Shown here: positions 1 through 6,534 of the stretch, piece by piece
Numbering within the stretch: position 1 is the stretch's first letter
Layout of the letters: each line of letters opens with the position of its first letter
From: Rhodothermus bifroesti
GTDB lineage: Bacteria > Bacteroidota > Rhodothermia > Rhodothermales > Rhodothermaceae
Length of the DNA: 64,000 bases
Assembly (NCBI RefSeq): GCF_017908595.1
Contig: NZ_JAGKTL010000002.1
Coordinates: 186,001-250,000, forward strand
Direction of reading: 5' to 3'
Program-made: the position numbers and the translations under genes
The notes under the pieces: generated by a model
What the model saw: only the letters and a program-made list of their open reading frames with translations
Told to the model about the DNA's origin: nothing
Database searches by the model: none

Positions 1-723
1 CACGACGATGACTCGTCCCCCTTGGCGCGTTGCATCGCACCGGGCGCGTTCCATAACCGCTTCGTCCAGCTCGAAGCCCGGCGGATGCGTCACCACAACT
101 TCCATCCCCAGACGTGCTGCCATAAGCAAGGCCGAGTTTGGTACAGCCATCGGTAGTGGGCGTGGGTGATAGGCCCAGCTCAGCACAAAGCGTCGCCCTT
201 GCAAGTTTCCGCCAAGATGATCGACAATCGTGGCCGCATCGGCCAGCGCTTGGCAAGGATGGTAAAAAGCGGATTCCAGGTTAATGACGGGCACGGTAGC
301 AATTTGGGCGATCTTGTGCAGCAGTACATCGTCGCGATCTTGGGCATAGTCGGTTTGCGAGGCAAAGACGCGTACCCCAAGCGCATCGTAGTACTGCGAT
401 AGCACCCCAATGGCTTCGCGGATGTGCTCTGCTTCTGGGCCATCCATGACGACGCCGTCGCGCCACTCAATTTGCCAGGTACCTTGACCAGCAACCAGCG
501 TGGTGGCGTGGGCCCCAAGCTGGATAGCGGCCAGTTCCATAGAGGTACGGGTGCGCAGCGAAGGATTGAAAAACAGCAGGCCCAGACTGCGGTTGCGAGC
601 TACATGACTGTAGGCATTTTTGCCTTGTCGGTAATGCTCTAGCGTACGGTTTAGGCAGGCGTTCCAAATGTGATCGTCAAGGTACTGCCAGTCCAGCAAG
701 TGGCGAGGTGGTGGAAGTTCCAT
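1..723 (-). CDS. argF': N-acylornithine carbamoyltransferase (ArgF'), C-terminus outside window
   Basis: This is a transcarbamylase of arginine synthesis, expected to move a carbamoyl group onto N-acetyl-ornithine (or N-succinyl-ornithine). About 241 residues are present; the family has roughly 310-340, so the C-terminus lies left of the window. The carbamoyl-phosphate loop reads FFNPSLRTRTSME near residue 50. The stretches WRDGVVMDG and SWAYHPRPLPMAVPNS are typical of the acylornithine branch (Xanthomonas/Bacteroides type) and not of ordinary OTC. An IEW segment before WRDG looks more like the acetyl-ornithine than the succinyl-ornithine enzymes, but this substrate call is inference. Its ATG overlaps the argD stop by one base (TGATG), so the two are probably translationally coupled. 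It is the last gene visible in the arg operon. Confidence 0.88.
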   Translation of the reverse strand, partial: MELPPPRHLLDWQYLDDHIWNACLNRTLEHYRQGKNAYSHVARNRSLGLLFFNPSLRTRTSMELAAIQLGAHATTLVAGQGTWQIEWRDGVVMDGPEAEHIREAIGVLSQYYDALGVRVFASQTDYAQDRDDVLLHKIAQIATVPVINLESAFYHPCQALADAATIVDHLGGNLQGRRFVLSWAYHPRPLPMAVPNSALLMAARLGMEVVVTHPPGFELDEAVMERARCDATRQGGRVIVV

Positions 724-1916
724 CAGGCCGTAGTGGTTTGAGGTTGGTTTACAGAGGTAAGCACGTGAAGGAACGTATCGATGAACATTTCAATGGCCTC
801 GTCCGGCGTGTTCAATGGAGGCATCAGCCGAATGACATTCGGATGGCTTGCATTACCGGCCAGAATGCCAGCTTCTCGCAGCCGGCTAAGTACCGGTGCG
901 GCCGGACGGTCTAGCTCGAGCCCAATCAGGCAGCCGCGGCCACGCACGGCTACCACATGATCGGCTACGCCATCGCGAATGCGCGCAAAAATTTGTGGTG
1001 CCCGTTTCATTAAGCCTTCCTCACGCAGCGTTTCGAGTGTAGCTGTAACAGCGGCCATGGCCAACATGCCGCCGCCAAAGGTGGTGCCTTGATCACCATA
1101 GCGCACTGAAGCAGCAATGGCATCCGAAACGAGCACGGCGCCAACCGGTACACCTGAGCCTAAGCTTTTAGCCAGCGTGATCAGGTCGGGCCGAATGCCA
1201 TACTGTTCGGCGATAGAAAAGGTGCCGGTACGTCCAACGCCCGTTTGCACCTCATCGAAAATAAGCAATGCGTTGTAGCGGTCGCACAGGGCACGCAGGG
1301 CGCGGTAGTACGCTACGGGAGCCTCGTAGACGCCCGCCATGCTCTGGATGGGCTCTAGGATGATCGCTGCAATATCATCCCGCTGTGCAAGCAGCTGTTC
1401 CACAGCCTCTAAGTCCCCCAGAGCAACAAAATGCGTGGGGGGCAGCACGGCCAGATACGGCTTGCGGTAGCCTATCGGTTCAGTAACTGCCAGGCTACCC
1501 AGCGTGCGACCGTGAAAGCCTCCTATAAGGGCAATGACTCCAGGTTTGCCAGTGTAGGTTCGGGCTAGTTTGAGGGCTGTTTCGTTGGCTTCAGTACCCG
1601 AGTTGCAAAAGAATACATGCCGCAGGCCTTCGGGAGCCATTTCAGCTAGCAAGGCTGCAGCACGGGCCCGTACGGGACTGTAGACCACATTGGAGTAAAA
1701 AAGTAACTGTTCAACTTGCTGCTTAAGTGCTGTCACCACGCGGGGAGGGCAGTGCCCTAGCAGCGTAACACAGTGGCCACCGTAAAAATCTAGGTAACGG
1801 TTGCCTTCGGCATCCCACACATAGCACCCTTGACCCTTGACCAGGGCTACAGGGTATTTACGGTAGGTAGGAATCTGATACGTGTCTTCCAAAAGAATCG
1901 TCTCTTGCGTGTTCAT
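723..1916 (-). CDS. argD: Acetylornithine aminotransferase (ArgD)
   Basis: A class III PLP aminotransferase of 397 residues that converts N-acetylglutamate semialdehyde to N-acetylornithine. Visible motifs are the glycine-rich NSGTEANETALKLAR, the aspartate motif FDEVQTGVGRTG and the PLP-binding lysine in LAKSLGSG. An in-frame start further upstream would place the N-terminus inside the argC terminator hairpin, so the ATG at 1916, preceded by GAAAAGG, is preferred. A six-codon frame (Met-Gly-Leu-Lys-Arg-Leu) lies directly upstream and its stop overlaps this ATG; it may be chance. The gene sits downstream of an intrinsic terminator that separates it from argC, leaving no room for a separate promoter. 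Its stop overlaps the argF' start. Confidence 0.93.
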   Translation of the reverse strand: MNTQETILLEDTYQIPTYRKYPVALVKGQGCYVWDAEGNRYLDFYGGHCVTLLGHCPPRVVTALKQQVEQLLFYSNVVYSPVRARAAALLAEMAPEGLRHVFFCNSGTEANETALKLARTYTGKPGVIALIGGFHGRTLGSLAVTEPIGYRKPYLAVLPPTHFVALGDLEAVEQLLAQRDDIAAIILEPIQSMAGVYEAPVAYYRALRALCDRYNALLIFDEVQTGVGRTGTFSIAEQYGIRPDLITLAKSLGSGVPVGAVLVSDAIAASVRYGDQGTTFGGGMLAMAAVTATLETLREEGLMKRAPQIFARIRDGVADHVVAVRGRGCLIGLELDRPAAPVLSRLREAGILAGNASHPNVIRLMPPLNTPDEAIEMFIDTFLHVLTSVNQPQTTTA

Positions 1917-1933
1917 AGCCTTTTCAAACCCAT

Positions 1934-1961
1934 AAAAAAAGCCGGGTCGTGGCGGCCCGGC
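1934..1961 (-). terminator. Intrinsic terminator between argC and argD
   Basis: On the minus strand a GCCGGG/CCCGGC stem with a nine-base loop is followed by seven T. It lies inside the arg operon, between the argC stop and the argD start, so it should cut the amount of argD-argF' message or act as a second control point. The T tract runs almost directly into the argD ribosome-binding region. Confidence 0.75.
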
Positions 1962-1966
1962 TGCGG

Positions 1967-2998
1967 TCAAGTGAGCAATGTTTCGGGGGTAGGGGTAGGG
2001 AGCAGCCCAGCCGTTTGGGGGAGTCCCAACAGCAAGTTTAGGTTTTCAATAGCTTGGCTGGCGGCGCCTTTGAGCAGGTTGTCGAGGGCAAAACCGATCA
2101 CCAGCTGTTCCTTCCCAACAACCCAGCCGATGTCGCAAAACGGGGTGTAGATGCTATAGCGCAACTCAGGTAGCTGCCCAGGCCAGAGCCGCACCAAGGG
2201 TGCATGGCTATAGGCTGCTGTAAACCAACGCTCAACCGTTTCAGCATCGATCTCTGTAGCAAGCGGCACAATGGCCGTCCCCCAGATGCCGCGCGTCCAG
2301 GGTCCAGAGGCCGGAACGAACCCGATACGGAGGCCTGTACCTACCACCTGCTGCACTTCGGGCAGATGCTGGTGGGCTAGCACTTTGTAGGCACGCACGT
2401 TGCCATCACGCTCAGGGAAGTGTGTGGTAGCTTTAGGCTGCGTGCCTGAACCTGAAGCGCCAGTAAGGGCAGTGACGGCCACCTGCGCCTGTGGCACATG
2501 CTGGCTCAGGGGCCAAAGCGCCAGGGCTAGACCAGTGGCAAAGCATCCTGGATTCGCCAAAAGGCGTGTTCCTTCAGGATAGGGCGCGTAGACATCGACC
2601 AACCCATAAACAAAGCGCGGCAGCAAATCTGCGGCTGGATGCTCAAATCCAAACCATGTAGGATAGACAGCCGCCTCCCGAAAGCGGAAATCTGCACTTA
2701 AGTCGATAATCACGCCCTCGTAGCCGCTTTCAAGCAAGCGACTGGCTGTGCGTGCCCCTTGACCATGCTCGGCTGCAATCAAAATAGCGTCAAAGTCCAA
2801 AACGTCCAGCGTGGACTCATCCGCAAAGACCAAGTCGGTTTGGCCGCGTAACGTTGGGTGGGCATACCACAAGGGTTTGCCCGCAAACGTACGGCTTGTC
2901 ACTGCAGCCAGCGTGCAGTAAGGGTGTGCCTGCACAAGCCGGATGAGCTCTCCGCCTACGTAGCCTGCACCGTGAAAAATCGCAATGCGTTTCGCCAT
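1967..2998 (-). CDS. argC: N-acetyl-gamma-glutamyl-phosphate reductase (ArgC)
   Basis: NADPH-dependent reductase of 343 residues that makes N-acetylglutamate semialdehyde. The N-terminal dinucleotide fold shows HGAGYVGGEL near residue 7, and the active-site cysteine is in NPGCFATG around residue 150. A GTG 15 bases upstream is possible, but the ATG at 2998 has AGAGAAG ahead of it and gives the usual short N-terminus. Sixteen bases separate it from the upstream P-loop gene, and a strong terminator hairpin follows its stop. It is the third gene of the arg operon. Confidence 0.95.
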   Translation of the reverse strand: MAKRIAIFHGAGYVGGELIRLVQAHPYCTLAAVTSRTFAGKPLWYAHPTLRGQTDLVFADESTLDVLDFDAILIAAEHGQGARTASRLLESGYEGVIIDLSADFRFREAAVYPTWFGFEHPAADLLPRFVYGLVDVYAPYPEGTRLLANPGCFATGLALALWPLSQHVPQAQVAVTALTGASGSGTQPKATTHFPERDGNVRAYKVLAHQHLPEVQQVVGTGLRIGFVPASGPWTRGIWGTAIVPLATEIDAETVERWFTAAYSHAPLVRLWPGQLPELRYSIYTPFCDIGWVVGKEQLVIGFALDNLLKGAASQAIENLNLLLGLPQTAGLLPTPTPETLLT

Positions 2999-3014
2999 AG
3001 CTTCTCTAGACACT

Positions 3015-4109
3015 TCAGGCGATCGTTACTGCAACCCCATTTCCATTGCTATAATGGGGTAAAGGGCGTACAGCTGTGCGCACGGAGCGCGCAATGAGCT
3101 GGCCCAAAGCTTCGGCATCTTGTCGGGCATTGAGGGCTGGAATGCCCATGGCGTGCTGAATGTAACGCTTGCCGACAGCGTTGTCGGTAACCGGACCGGT
3201 AATCACCGTAATTGGGGCTTGGTAGCGCGTGCGAAAGAGCTGATCCGCTGCCCAAGCGCCAGCTAAATCCGTAGCGGCCACCACATGCGCCCGTGTAAAG
3301 CGTTGCAGCTCTTTGTCGAGCAGCAGCTCATCAACGCCGTAGTAGCCAATAAAACCATCACCCAGCTCGACGACAATTACGTCGGGCGCGAAAGTATTCA
3401 GGTGCGCAATCAACCCTTTGGCTAGGGGGGCCATTTCTTTGTTTGTGGAAGAAACCACGCCTGCATCAATAAACGTCACGCTGGCAATTGCACCGTGCTC
3501 TTCCATCATCCGGGCGTCGCGCAGCAGTGCTGCACCGGTGAGTTTGCCAGCTGCAACGCGCAATCCGTGTTCGGTGAGGTAGCGAATGATCTGGGCTGCG
3601 GCAAACGTTTTTCCCGTATTCATCGAGGTGCCGCTAACGATCACCAGCGGCGCCGAATGCGTGAGCGAAAATTGCGGTTCGATAGCGTGATCCTGCACGC
3701 GGGCATGCCGCTTTTGGCCGTTGACATCCACCAGCACTGCCCCAAGCACTTCAACACGCAGGGCTGGACCCAGATCGGGGTGGTCGGAAGTGCATTGGCC
3801 TAGGATGCCTCCCATGTTGAGCACATTAAGCACATCGCCGACCTGAATGCGGCGAGGAATGCGGCCGCTATAGCCCTTAAGCGCTTGGCGTTCACCTAAG
3901 GCACCAATAATCAGATCACCCCGCCGAATAGGTTGAAACGTGCCGTCGGTGCACTCTAGCAAATTATACGTGGTCTTTTCTTCGAGAGCGCGTACAACCA
4001 GGCAGTAGCCCTCTTCCGCGACGATGTAAGCGGTCAGTTCTACCTCGTGGCTAAGCCGGCAAGGAGCCGTGCTGGATCCAATTTTGTCCACTGTGAGATA
4101 CTGGTTCAT
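3015..4109 (-). CDS. P-loop protein of unknown function in the arginine operon (DUF1611/DgcN-like)
   Basis: A 364-residue protein not confidently recognised. The N-terminal ~135 residues look like a beta-rich domain. The C-terminal half has a Walker A-like loop GTSMNTGKT near residue 160, then AAGKLTGAALL, VVELGDGF and AATDLAGAWAADQL. The order of P-loop, K-L-T-G and V-V-E-x-G-D-G recalls the C-terminal domain of DUF1611 proteins. One DUF1611 member, DgcN, has been reported as a D-glutamate N-acetyltransferase. In Bacteroidota arg clusters, the slot between argG and argC usually holds an N-acetyltransferase supplying N-acetylglutamate, so this protein could fill the same step; that is inference only. 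It has no signal peptide or membrane segment. It starts 18 bases after argG and ends 16 bases before argC, so it is clearly part of the operon. Confidence 0.7.
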   Translation of the reverse strand: MNQYLTVDKIGSSTAPCRLSHEVELTAYIVAEEGYCLVVRALEEKTTYNLLECTDGTFQPIRRGDLIIGALGERQALKGYSGRIPRRIQVGDVLNVLNMGGILGQCTSDHPDLGPALRVEVLGAVLVDVNGQKRHARVQDHAIEPQFSLTHSAPLVIVSGTSMNTGKTFAAAQIIRYLTEHGLRVAAGKLTGAALLRDARMMEEHGAIASVTFIDAGVVSSTNKEMAPLAKGLIAHLNTFAPDVIVVELGDGFIGYYGVDELLLDKELQRFTRAHVVAATDLAGAWAADQLFRTRYQAPITVITGPVTDNAVGKRYIQHAMGIPALNARQDAEALGQLIARSVRTAVRPLPHYSNGNGVAVTIA

Positions 4110-4127: not shown

Positions 4128-5357
4128 TTATGCGGCCGTCTGGTTTTCTATTTCTGAAGGCGTGGCTGCTTTGCGTACCAAGGCAGCCAATAGGGCTTGC
4201 ACCCCATAAATGCGGGTAAAGCCTTGGGCATCGCGTCCGTCCCAAAGGCGGTTTTGTTCACCGTAGGTCGCAACACGCGCGTTAAAAAGGGAGTAAGGGC
4301 TGTCGCATCCAAGCACTTCGATGTTGCCCTTAAAAAGGCGCACGCCTACGGTGCCCGTAACGACGGTTTGGGAAGAATCCAAAAAAGCTTCAATGTCGCG
4401 CATTACAGGATCAAAGTACTGGCCTTCGTGCAGCAGCATGCCGTAGAAGTCGGCAAGATGATCTTTTTGATACCGCTGCCAGCGCGTAAGCACAATTTTT
4501 TCTAGCTCTCGGTGTGCCGTGATCAGAATCAGTGCAGCTGGCGCTTCAAAGCCCACGCGGCCTTTGATGCCTAGGATGGTGTCGCCTACATGAATACCCC
4601 GGCCTACACCATGTGCAGCTCCTAGCTGGTTTAGGCGCTCAATCAGCGTGACCGGATCGAGAGCTTCGCCATCAAGTGCGGTTGGAATGCCCTGCGTGAA
4701 CGTAAGGGTAAGCTCCAGGGGGGTGTCGGGGGCTTGGGCTGGCGAGACTGTATCGGGATAAGCCTCGTCGGGTAGCGGATCGGTGGTGGTATGCGTCTCC
4801 CGGCCGCCGATCGTTGTGCCCCAAAGACCTCGGTTGATGGAATAAGCAGTTTTCTTTTCCGGTACTGCAATGCCGCGCTCACGCAGATAGGCCGTAGCCG
4901 CCGCGCGACTTAGGCCTAGCTCTCGAATAGGCGTCAGAATTTCCAAGTCGTCGGCTAAGATGCGTAGGGCGACGTCAAAGCGCACCTGGTCGTTTCCAGC
5001 CCCTGTCGAGCCATGGGCAATCGCCCGCGCACCAAGCTGACGGGCTAGCTCGACTACCTTACGCGCTTGCACAATGCGCTCTGGCCCGACGCACAGCGGA
5101 TAGACGCCACCCCGCAACACGTTGCCCTTGATCAGGTAGCTCAGATGATCCCGGAAGAGCTCATAGCGACCATCCAGGGTGAAGTGCCCAGCTGCACCAA
5201 GCCGCTGGGAAAGCGCCTCAATTTCAGCAAGTGCTTCTGCGGTAAATCCACCCGTATTCACCGTTACCGTGTAAACCGGCTCCTTGTACGTCTCCCGCAA
5301 ATACGGGACGCAAAATGAGGTGTCTAAGCCACCGCTGAAGGCCAAAACAATCGACAT
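4128..5357 (-). CDS. argG: Argininosuccinate synthase (ArgG)
   Basis: ATP-dependent ligase of citrulline and aspartate, 409 residues, a normal length for the family. The N-terminus carries the PP-loop motif AFSGGLDTS at residues 6-14, and VTVNTGG, HGSTGAGNDQVRFD and YSINRGLWG follow as expected. The ATG is 18 bases downstream of the T tract of an attenuator terminator, so transcription of this first structural gene depends on readthrough of that element. No clear Shine-Dalgarno sequence is seen, which is common in this lineage. Confidence 0.95.
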   Translation of the reverse strand: MSIVLAFSGGLDTSFCVPYLRETYKEPVYTVTVNTGGFTAEALAEIEALSQRLGAAGHFTLDGRYELFRDHLSYLIKGNVLRGGVYPLCVGPERIVQARKVVELARQLGARAIAHGSTGAGNDQVRFDVALRILADDLEILTPIRELGLSRAAATAYLRERGIAVPEKKTAYSINRGLWGTTIGGRETHTTTDPLPDEAYPDTVSPAQAPDTPLELTLTFTQGIPTALDGEALDPVTLIERLNQLGAAHGVGRGIHVGDTILGIKGRVGFEAPAALILITAHRELEKIVLTRWQRYQKDHLADFYGMLLHEGQYFDPVMRDIEAFLDSSQTVVTGTVGVRLFKGNIEVLGCDSPYSLFNARVATYGEQNRLWDGRDAQGFTRIYGVQALLAALVRKAATPSEIENQTAA

Positions 5358-5374: not shown

Positions 5375-5417
5375 GGTTAAAAACGAAGGGCGCCAGCTCC
5401 TTTTGGAACCGGCGCCC
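5375..5417 (-). terminator. Attenuator terminator (regions 3:4) ahead of argG
   Basis: In the minus-strand RNA, 13 bases at 5405-5417 pair without a gap (allowing G-U pairs) to 13 bases at 5388-5400 around an AAAA loop, followed by UUCGUUUUU. Region 3 (5405-5417) repeats the sequence of region 1, so region 2 can pair with either. The element lies in the argG leader behind an arginine-rich leader peptide. Confidence 0.88.
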
Positions 5418-5535
5418 TGTCTATCGAAAATCGCTTAAATCAACGCAAACTCATGCTGTTGCAAGACAGGATACGCCGGTTCCACCCCCGCGGGGGCGAC
5501 GGGGACGTCGCACAGGTCGGATGGGTCGAACCGGC
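5388..5535 (-). promoter_or_regulatory. Arginine attenuator: alternative pairing regions 1-4
   Basis: Minus-strand regions: 1 = GCCGGTTC at 5528-5535; 2 = GGAACCGGCG at 5474-5483; 3 = GGGCGCCGGTTCC at 5405-5417; 4 = GGAGCTGGCGCCC at 5388-5400. Region 2 pairs with region 1 over 8 bp (plus 3 bp after one mismatch) or with region 3 over 10 perfect bp, and 3 pairs with 4 to form the terminator. Region 1 covers leader codons 10-13 and the arginine codons begin at its edge. The leader stop codon lies beyond region 2. This is the layout of trp/his-type attenuation: a ribosome stalled at the first arginine codons masks region 1 and frees 2:3; a ribosome that reads through covers region 2 and lets 3:4 terminate. 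Confidence 0.85.
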
Positions 5536-5564
5536 AGCATCACAATCATAGACTGCAACAACAT
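5451..5564 (-). CDS. Arginine-rich leader peptide of the arg operon (37 aa)
   Basis: A 37-codon open frame (ATG at 5564, TGA at 5451-5453) lies between a good promoter and the attenuator. Its middle reads VRPIRPVRRPRRPR, seven arginines within 13 codons (codons 13-25). In order the Arg codons are CGA, CGA, CGA, CGT, CGT, CGC, CGC. The start would be only a few bases after the predicted transcription start, so translation may be leaderless; ATGs at codons 6 and 9 are alternatives that keep all Arg codons. No Shine-Dalgarno sequence is visible. The peptide itself probably has no function beyond ribosome stalling. Confidence 0.8.
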   Translation of the reverse strand: MLLQSMIVMLPVRPIRPVRRPRRPRGGGTGVSCLATA

Positions 5565-5572
5565 GATGCGCG

Positions 5573-5603
5573 CAAGAATACGGCGATTCTATCGCAATGT
5601 CAA
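5573..5603 (-). promoter_or_regulatory. Promoter of the arg leader/argG operon
   Basis: Minus strand: TTGACA (5598-5603), 17-base spacer, TATTCT (5575-5580) continuing as TATTCTTG. It fits both the general sigma-70 form and the Bacteroidota form TTG-N20-TAnnTTTG with one mismatch. It starts 29 bases after the folD stop and predicts a transcript start near 5568. Confidence 0.8.
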
Positions 5604-5631: not shown

Positions 5632-6534
5632 TCACAGAGGGCGTGCCTTATACGTATACGTATATCGCTGCTGCGCAGCATAAAGGGTATTGCGTAGCAG
5701 CAAAGCAATCGTCATGGGACCTACACCCCCGGGTACTGGGGTAATCCATCCAGCTTTTTGCGAGACAGCCTCAAAGTCCACGTCGCCTACGAGCCGATAG
5801 CCGCGGGGATGCGCAGGATCCTCAACACGGTTGATGCCCACATCGATCACTACAGCACCGTCGCGCACCATATCGGCCGTAATGTAGCGCGGCTGACCTA
5901 TGGCAGCAATCAAAATATCGGCCTGTTGGGTTAGCGCAGCCAGGTTAGACGTGCGGCTATGACAGACAGTAACCGTGGCATCGATGCCGCGCTGCAGCAA
6001 AAGGACAGCCAGCGGACGCCCCACAATGTTGGAGCGCCCCACAACAACCGCATGTTTGCCCGCTGTTTCAATGCCGCTGCGCCGCAATAACTCCAAAATA
6101 CCTGCCGGTGTAGCAGGCACAAAGCCGGGTTCACCTAAAAGCAGCCTTCCAGCATTAACGGGGTGAAAGCCGTCTACGTCTTTTTCAGGACGGATTGCAT
6201 GTAGGATGCGGCTGGGGTTGATGTGTGCGGGTAGGGGGAGCTGTACCAGAATGCCGTCGACGCTTTCATCGGCATTAAGCCGCTCGATTTCGGCCAGCAA
6301 TTCGGCTTCGGTAAGGTGGGTATCGAAATGCAACGTTTCGCTGGCAATACCTACTTCGGCAGCAGCCTGGGTTTTTCCGCGCACGTAGGAAGCCGAAGCT
6401 GGGTTGTCGCCTACCAGAATAACGGCCAGATGGGGCGCGCGGTGTCCAGCTGCCACCCAAGCAGCCACTTCAGCTTTTACTTCGGCCCGCACCTGAGCCG
6501 CAATGGCTTTCCCGTCAATTAACTGAGCCACCAC
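5632..6534 (-). CDS. folD: Bifunctional methylene-THF dehydrogenase / methenyl-THF cyclohydrolase (FolD)
   Basis: A 300-residue cytosolic folate enzyme converting 5,10-methylene-THF to 10-formyl-THF with NADP. Visible motifs: SYVRGKTQAAAEVGI with the catalytic lysine near residue 57, GILVQLPLP, VVGRSNIVGRPLA and PVPGGVGPMT. The start is GTG at 6534; a second GTG follows at 6531. The last ~15 residues extend a little beyond the usual end. It stands back to back with porU, with a 244-base gap to the preferred porU start, and its 3' end abuts the arg promoter. No terminator is seen before that promoter. Confidence 0.94.
   Translation of the reverse strand: MVAQLIDGKAIAAQVRAEVKAEVAAWVAAGHRAPHLAVILVGDNPASASYVRGKTQAAAEVGIASETLHFDTHLTEAELLAEIERLNADESVDGILVQLPLPAHINPSRILHAIRPEKDVDGFHPVNAGRLLLGEPGFVPATPAGILELLRRSGIETAGKHAVVVGRSNIVGRPLAVLLLQRGIDATVTVCHSRTSNLAALTQQADILIAAIGQPRYITADMVRDGAVVIDVGINRVEDPAHPRGYRLVGDVDFEAVSQKAGWITPVPGGVGPMTIALLLRNTLYAAQQRYTYTYKARPL

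Follow-up and report, generated by a model that had tools for sequence, protein, structure and literature searches.

Upstream of argG in Rhodothermus bifroesti lies what is very likely a ribosome-mediated transcription attenuator, through which the charging of Arg-tRNA would control the arg operon. At the level of sequence, the evidence consists of a promoter, a small reading frame with a run of Arg codons, an intrinsic terminator, alternative RNA pairings, conservation among relatives, a codon bias and the absence of ArgR. The transcription start site, translation of the frame, ribosome stalling and the response to arginine are inferred. The features that define ribosome-mediated attenuators as a class are present: a frame rich in codons for the end product between the promoter and the first gene (its translation being inferred), an intrinsic terminator between this leader frame and the first structural gene and, in the window and its genus, mutually exclusive pairings of an RNA region 2 with either region 3 or region 1.

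All coordinates refer to the window, the whole stretch of 64,000 nucleotides that was analyzed, and the features described in it are on the minus strand, where the order is folD (5632-6534), promoter, leader frame, terminator and argG. The promoter (5575..5603) has a -35 sequence TTGACA at 5603-5598, a 17-nt spacer and a -10 sequence TATTCT at 5580-5575. The leader frame (5451..5564; peptide MLLQSMIVMLPVRPIRPVRRPRRPRGGGTGVSCLATA*) begins with an ATG at 5564, located 10 nt 3' to the -10 box and without a Shine-Dalgarno sequence, and runs for 37 codons to a stop at 5453-5451. Seven Arg codons occur within 13 codons (5490..5528); in order these are CGA, CGA, CGA, CGT, CGT, CGC and CGC, at positions 5528, 5519, 5510, 5507, 5501, 5498 and 5492. 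When the region upstream of the window's argG was shuffled with dinucleotides preserved, an ATG frame with at least seven Arg in 13 codons was found in only 4 of 2000 shuffles. The exact start codon is uncertain because three in-frame ATGs are present (5564, 5549 and 5540); the leader of one relative (G230, L111) is without the first of these.

Four pairing regions follow from the leader RNA. Region 1 (GCCGGTTC, 5528..5535) pairs with region 2 (GGAACCGGCGT-AT-CCTGTCT, 5464..5483), which can pair instead with region 3 (AGACAGG-GCGCCGGTTCC, 5405..5422). The core of region 2, GGAACCGGCG, is at 5483-5474 and that of region 3 at 5416-5405; region 2 extends to 5464, with CCTGTCT pairing to AGACAGG at 5422-5416, so that the antiterminator is a helix of 11 + 7 = 18 bp. 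Region 3 is also the 5' arm of the intrinsic terminator, in which it pairs with region 4 (5400-5389); this hairpin (5387..5418) has a 14-bp stem, is followed by the T tract TCGTTTTT at 5386-5379 and ends 29 nt from argG. The 1:2, 2:3 and 3:4 pairings are thus mutually exclusive in the window, the only place where the protector pairing 1:2 was checked. The 200-nt leader RNA folds at -103.6 kcal/mol (z = -8.9), and none of 200 shuffles was equally stable. The 2:3 helix persisted in folds that began at the stall site and took in all of region 3, with each of the ribosome edges assumed between 5540 and 5485. The original prediction had named this promoter, a 37-codon leader with seven Arg codons in 13, and four pairing regions ending in a terminator with a T tract, and all of these held at the positions it gave. 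Its 10-bp pairing of regions 2 and 3 proved to be part of a longer helix, and its 13-bp terminator stem is corrected to 14 bp.

The proposed mechanism is as follows. Transcription would start at the leader ATG or within a few bases of it, and a ribosome would load on the 5' end of the RNA. When charged Arg-tRNA is scarce, the ribosome is predicted to stall in the Arg run (5528-5501), where it would mask region 1 or sit just past it and leave the RNA from 5483 onward free. Region 2 could then capture region 3 before region 4 has been made; with the 2:3 helix formed no terminator would arise, and RNA polymerase would read into argG. When Arg-tRNA is plentiful, the ribosome would reach the stop codon (5453) and cover the 3' part of region 2, with region 1 holding the 5' part. 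Region 2 being occupied, regions 3 and 4 would pair and transcription would end before argG. If the leader is not translated at all, the 1:2 pairing would form and termination would be expected as well. The ribosome footprints used here are standard values.

The operon so controlled would have the order argG-X-argC-argD-argF'-argB, where argF' encodes N-acetylornithine carbamoyltransferase. Its first gene is argG, for argininosuccinate synthase (4128..5357), followed by gene X (3015..4109), argC (1967..3013) and an argD-type aminotransferase gene (723..1970) whose start codon is uncertain; argF' and argB are positioned at and past the left end of the window. Gene X encodes a P-loop protein of 364 amino acids that has no NCBIfam match and only a sub-threshold resemblance to CbiA/DUF1611, and no part in arginine synthesis can be assigned to it.

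ArgG was searched for in 114 Rhodothermales genomes, in 88 of which (hand count) the region upstream of argG was readable. An Arg-rich leader frame and a terminator precede argG in about 68 of these 88 genomes, again by hand count, and are retained in relatives in which the gene upstream is a different one. The two genomes of a sister order (f9) that were examined also carry an Arg-rich leader and a terminator, and the arrangement is therefore likely to be older than the order itself. No leader was found in any of the 16 readable genomes of family f7, and it is missing from genus g10 of family f4 and from genomes G217 and G220; in f7 and g10, argG and argC remain adjacent. A search of 77 argG loci from elsewhere, most of them in Bacteroidota, gave no similar arrangement above the reverse-strand control. 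In several f4 genomes (L010, L118, L137, L173 and others) a small gene resembling PadR-type regulators is located just upstream of argG. A PadR-like gene also adjoins argG in genus g10, where the leader has been lost.

The leader peptides themselves are diverged, and their only common feature is the presence of Arg runs (for example MTTQTVHTTRARRRARRERRTRTRM, MKTNFFPIALDSRFRRLPTRRIRRV and MPLASLRRPRRRP), which vary in place and number from one leader to another. Arg makes up 23% of residues in the leader frame as compared to 11% in the other two frames, and at least 6 Arg in 13 codons were found in 72% of leaders as compared to 1.5% of shuffles. Lys accounts for only 1.2% of leader residues; thus we infer that positive charge as such is not the property retained. 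The terminator is present in all 64 distinct leaders and ends no more than about 150 nt from argG. Among 38 distinct terminator hairpins, 10 of 12 pairs show changes on both sides, a level of covariation that none of 500 shuffles matched on any measure; 96% of terminator cells were paired in register, as against 31-46% when the arms were slid. Consensus folding revealed no RNA core conserved across families other than the terminator. When the 3' arm of the terminator was left out, consensus folding of f4 and of mixed-family leaders did not find a strong consensus, and we conclude that the sequence of the antiterminator differs among leaders. At their gathering scores, the Rfam covariance models matched only two tRNAs in the window, with no T-box, amino-acid leader or riboswitch among the matches.

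The strength of the 2:3 antiterminator varies by family, from strong to marginal. In the window's genus the structure is unambiguous, with z-scores from -2.6 to -4.9 and all five leaders significant at p<=0.015. In other families it is significant only in aggregate. Across families, the mean of the family z-scores is -0.90 (p 0.009), and regions 2 and 3 of the same leader pair at -14.0 kcal/mol as compared to -11.9 kcal/mol for between-family swaps, with only 0.05% of permutations as good. Individually, only 15 of 64 leaders exceed their shuffles at p<=0.05, and families f3, f40 and f46 have no 2:3 signal in the mean. When local duplexes were compared with long shuffled segments, the signal was weak in many families. 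In many leaders the hairpin is composite, with a second helix between the leader stop and region 3. The original reading, attenuation of the trp/his type, is supported by the Arg codons of relatives together with the covariation, the response to arginine being inferred. Retained Arg codons and covariation had been proposed as a check on that reading; the codons are retained and the terminator covaries, so this check was passed. The full four-region logic that it claimed has strong support in some families and in the genus of the window, and is individually weak elsewhere.

None of the 64 leaders has a Shine-Dalgarno-like 4-mer before its ATG, and the -10 box usually ends 8-10 nt before this codon. 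High-scoring promoters were found upstream of 65% of leaders as compared to 4% of shuffles. Because a Shine-Dalgarno sequence is lacking and the ATG follows so closely behind the -10 box, transcription would be expected to start some 0-4 nt ahead of the ATG, and the leader is likely to be near-leaderless, a conclusion drawn from sequence alone in the absence of a mapped start site. With a start that looks leaderless, one may ask how a ribosome that initiates directly on the bare 5' terminus would stay in step with RNA polymerase.

The Arg codons of the leaders are strongly biased. CGA accounts for 45% of them, as compared to 6% in the argG genes that these leaders precede and 12.5% in the genes of the window, and CGG for 6% as compared to 32% in argG. 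The composition of the leaders is not the cause of the CGA bias, since their other four-fold codons end in A in only 18% of cases (and in G in 31%). A Fisher test gives p ~1e-30 for this bias, a value inflated by the relatedness of the leaders. Among the tRNA genes that were read (not all 43), the tRNA-Arg anticodons were ACG, in one copy, CCG, CCT and TCT. A tRNA with the anticodon ICG reads CGT, CGC and CGA, and decoding of CGA is slow. The preference for CGA and the avoidance of CGG therefore point to tRNA-Arg(ICG) as the presumptive sensor, with the leaders read mainly by one isoacceptor, although this too is inferred from the sequences only. As found across 64 diverged leaders, the CGA bias is a natural source of data on the isoacceptor by which a cell gauges starvation.

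ArgR was not found in the R. bifroesti genome, nor in 112 of the 114 Rhodothermales genomes. One of the two genomes in which it is present is G217, which is without the leader. In G217 (C181, L156) an ArgR gene lies beside a divergent argG (50% identity) that has no Arg leader; possibly, operon and repressor were acquired together from elsewhere. G030 (C1) has 127-residue frames that match the ArgR DNA-binding domain at five places with equal scores; these are probably not ArgR but copies of a mobile element. Family f7 has neither the leader nor ArgR, and thus control of arginine synthesis without either is possible there.

The R. bifroesti genome also appears to have a textbook Trp attenuator of similar design, judging by the region upstream of trpE (L204, C4, 58516-58944), which makes the arginine reading more credible. 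The putative trpE leader, MMRHVAYHSAHYFGWWWFTASAVGCARA, has three tandem Trp codons and no Shine-Dalgarno sequence and is followed by a terminator; a -10-like TATCTT ends 7 nt before its ATG, and GCAGTGGGC can pair with either CCCACT upstream or GCCCACTGC downstream. The Trp attenuator, the leaderless-looking start and the CGA bias with its link to tRNA(ICG) were not part of the original prediction. No Arg- or His-rich leader was found upstream of carA, argH or hisG in this genome, and argH and hisG were without an upstream terminator as well. No second Arg leader emerged when the whole genome was scanned for exact TTGACA promoters with an ATG nearby. Two other loci should be mentioned. At carA (L205, C4, 77645-78706), there is a terminator, AAGCCTTCCC-AAGG-GGGAAGGCTT with a T tract, some 80 nt upstream of the carA match. 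Preceded by a small frame that is not Arg-rich, it could be a different, perhaps pyrimidine-linked, attenuator. At L184 (C1:508450), a TTGACA promoter and a 23-codon frame, MRQLQRAEAFLRLSQGRYGRYQL, precede a likely rplM ribosomal-protein gene.

Three other explanations were considered and rejected on this evidence. In the first, the leader would encode an arrest peptide: within the ribosome tunnel the nascent chain would itself detect a ligand, be it arginine, ornithine or some other, and the hairpins would respond to the arrest. In Salmonella, a role of this kind has been proposed for an Arg-containing leader upstream of speF, in which the Arg codons matter (PMC6386406). However, arrest peptides need specific residues, whereas here no residues other than Arg are conserved, and a synonymous bias toward CGA fits decoding and not peptide chemistry; we consider this explanation very improbable. 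In the second, the same terminator would be governed by a metabolite-binding riboswitch or a bound protein, the Arg-rich frame being a by-product of GC-rich pairing. The leader RNA is indeed highly structured, and in some genomes the Arg run falls within paired segments. Against this, the terminator is the only RNA core conserved across families and Rfam offers no match, the Arg enrichment is specific to one frame, and in most leaders the start codon is at a fixed distance from the promoter, all of which leaves little to recommend it. The last possibility, a plain folD terminator with a chance leader frame and an argG promoter further downstream, is suggested by the position of folD upstream on the same strand and is highly implausible given that a promoter sits between folD and the terminator, that leader and terminator persist beside different upstream genes, and that the Arg runs and codon bias recur in relatives.

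Attenuation by Arg-tRNA charging is thus the reading we retain, and it bears on a pathway that is the standard example of amino-acid biosynthesis run by a repressor and not by attenuation. An order-wide arginine attenuator in a group almost without ArgR implies that a sensor of tRNA charging can substitute for the regulator. A bolder reading, toward which the balance tips only slightly, is that arginine synthesis in Rhodothermales is controlled mainly by a leaderless arginine attenuator, which is ancestral, takes the place of ArgR and is tuned to tRNA-Arg(ICG). If so, the leaders would allow a direct test of the theory that the codons used in attenuators are those of the isoacceptor that is first to become uncharged.

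The arginine genes of E. coli are stated not to use attenuation (PMC6245113), and arginine attenuation was not seen in Actinobacteria (PMC1262725). In 2010, leader-peptide systems had, as far as the authors of one report knew, been shown only in Proteobacteria and Actinobacteria, to which Firmicutes were added in that report (PMC2965389). An arginine leader-peptide attenuator of biosynthetic genes was not found in the open-access literature that we searched, subscription papers being mostly outside this coverage. Within that limit, what is new is arginine as the amino acid, the apparently near-leaderless start, the codon tuning and the occurrence in a group almost without ArgR; the principle itself is known.

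Several known systems share parts of this arrangement. The arginine T-boxes of Firmicutes also sense the charging of tRNA-Arg and act through a terminator (PMC1262725), but they bind the tRNA directly and have no translated leader, and no T-box match is present here. The carA leader of Pseudomonas aeruginosa resembles ours in having a leader peptide and suspected attenuation before a gene common to arginine and pyrimidine synthesis; however, the attenuation reported there answers to pyrimidines, and its arginine control is transcriptional (PMC4997734). Salmonella orf34, in the speF leader, has consecutive Arg codons and alternative RNA structures that respond to arginine (PMC6386406), but it acts on ornithine decarboxylase via Rho and RNase G, whereas here an intrinsic terminator precedes biosynthesis genes. 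Mycobacteria have polycysteine attenuators (Canestrari et al. 2020, as cited in PMC9031893) in which, as appears to be the case here, a small frame without a leader carries the codons of the sensed amino acid in a contiguous run and controls downstream genes. They differ in the amino acid and in the phylum, and the citing review describes control over the translation of the downstream genes, where the present system has arginine and an evident transcription terminator. The attenuators of trp, his, leu, thr, ilv and phe are alike in having a frame rich in the end product, mutually exclusive hairpins and a terminator before the first biosynthetic gene, and from these the Rhodothermales leaders differ in their use of arginine, their lack of a Shine-Dalgarno sequence, their preference for CGA and their presence in an order almost without ArgR.
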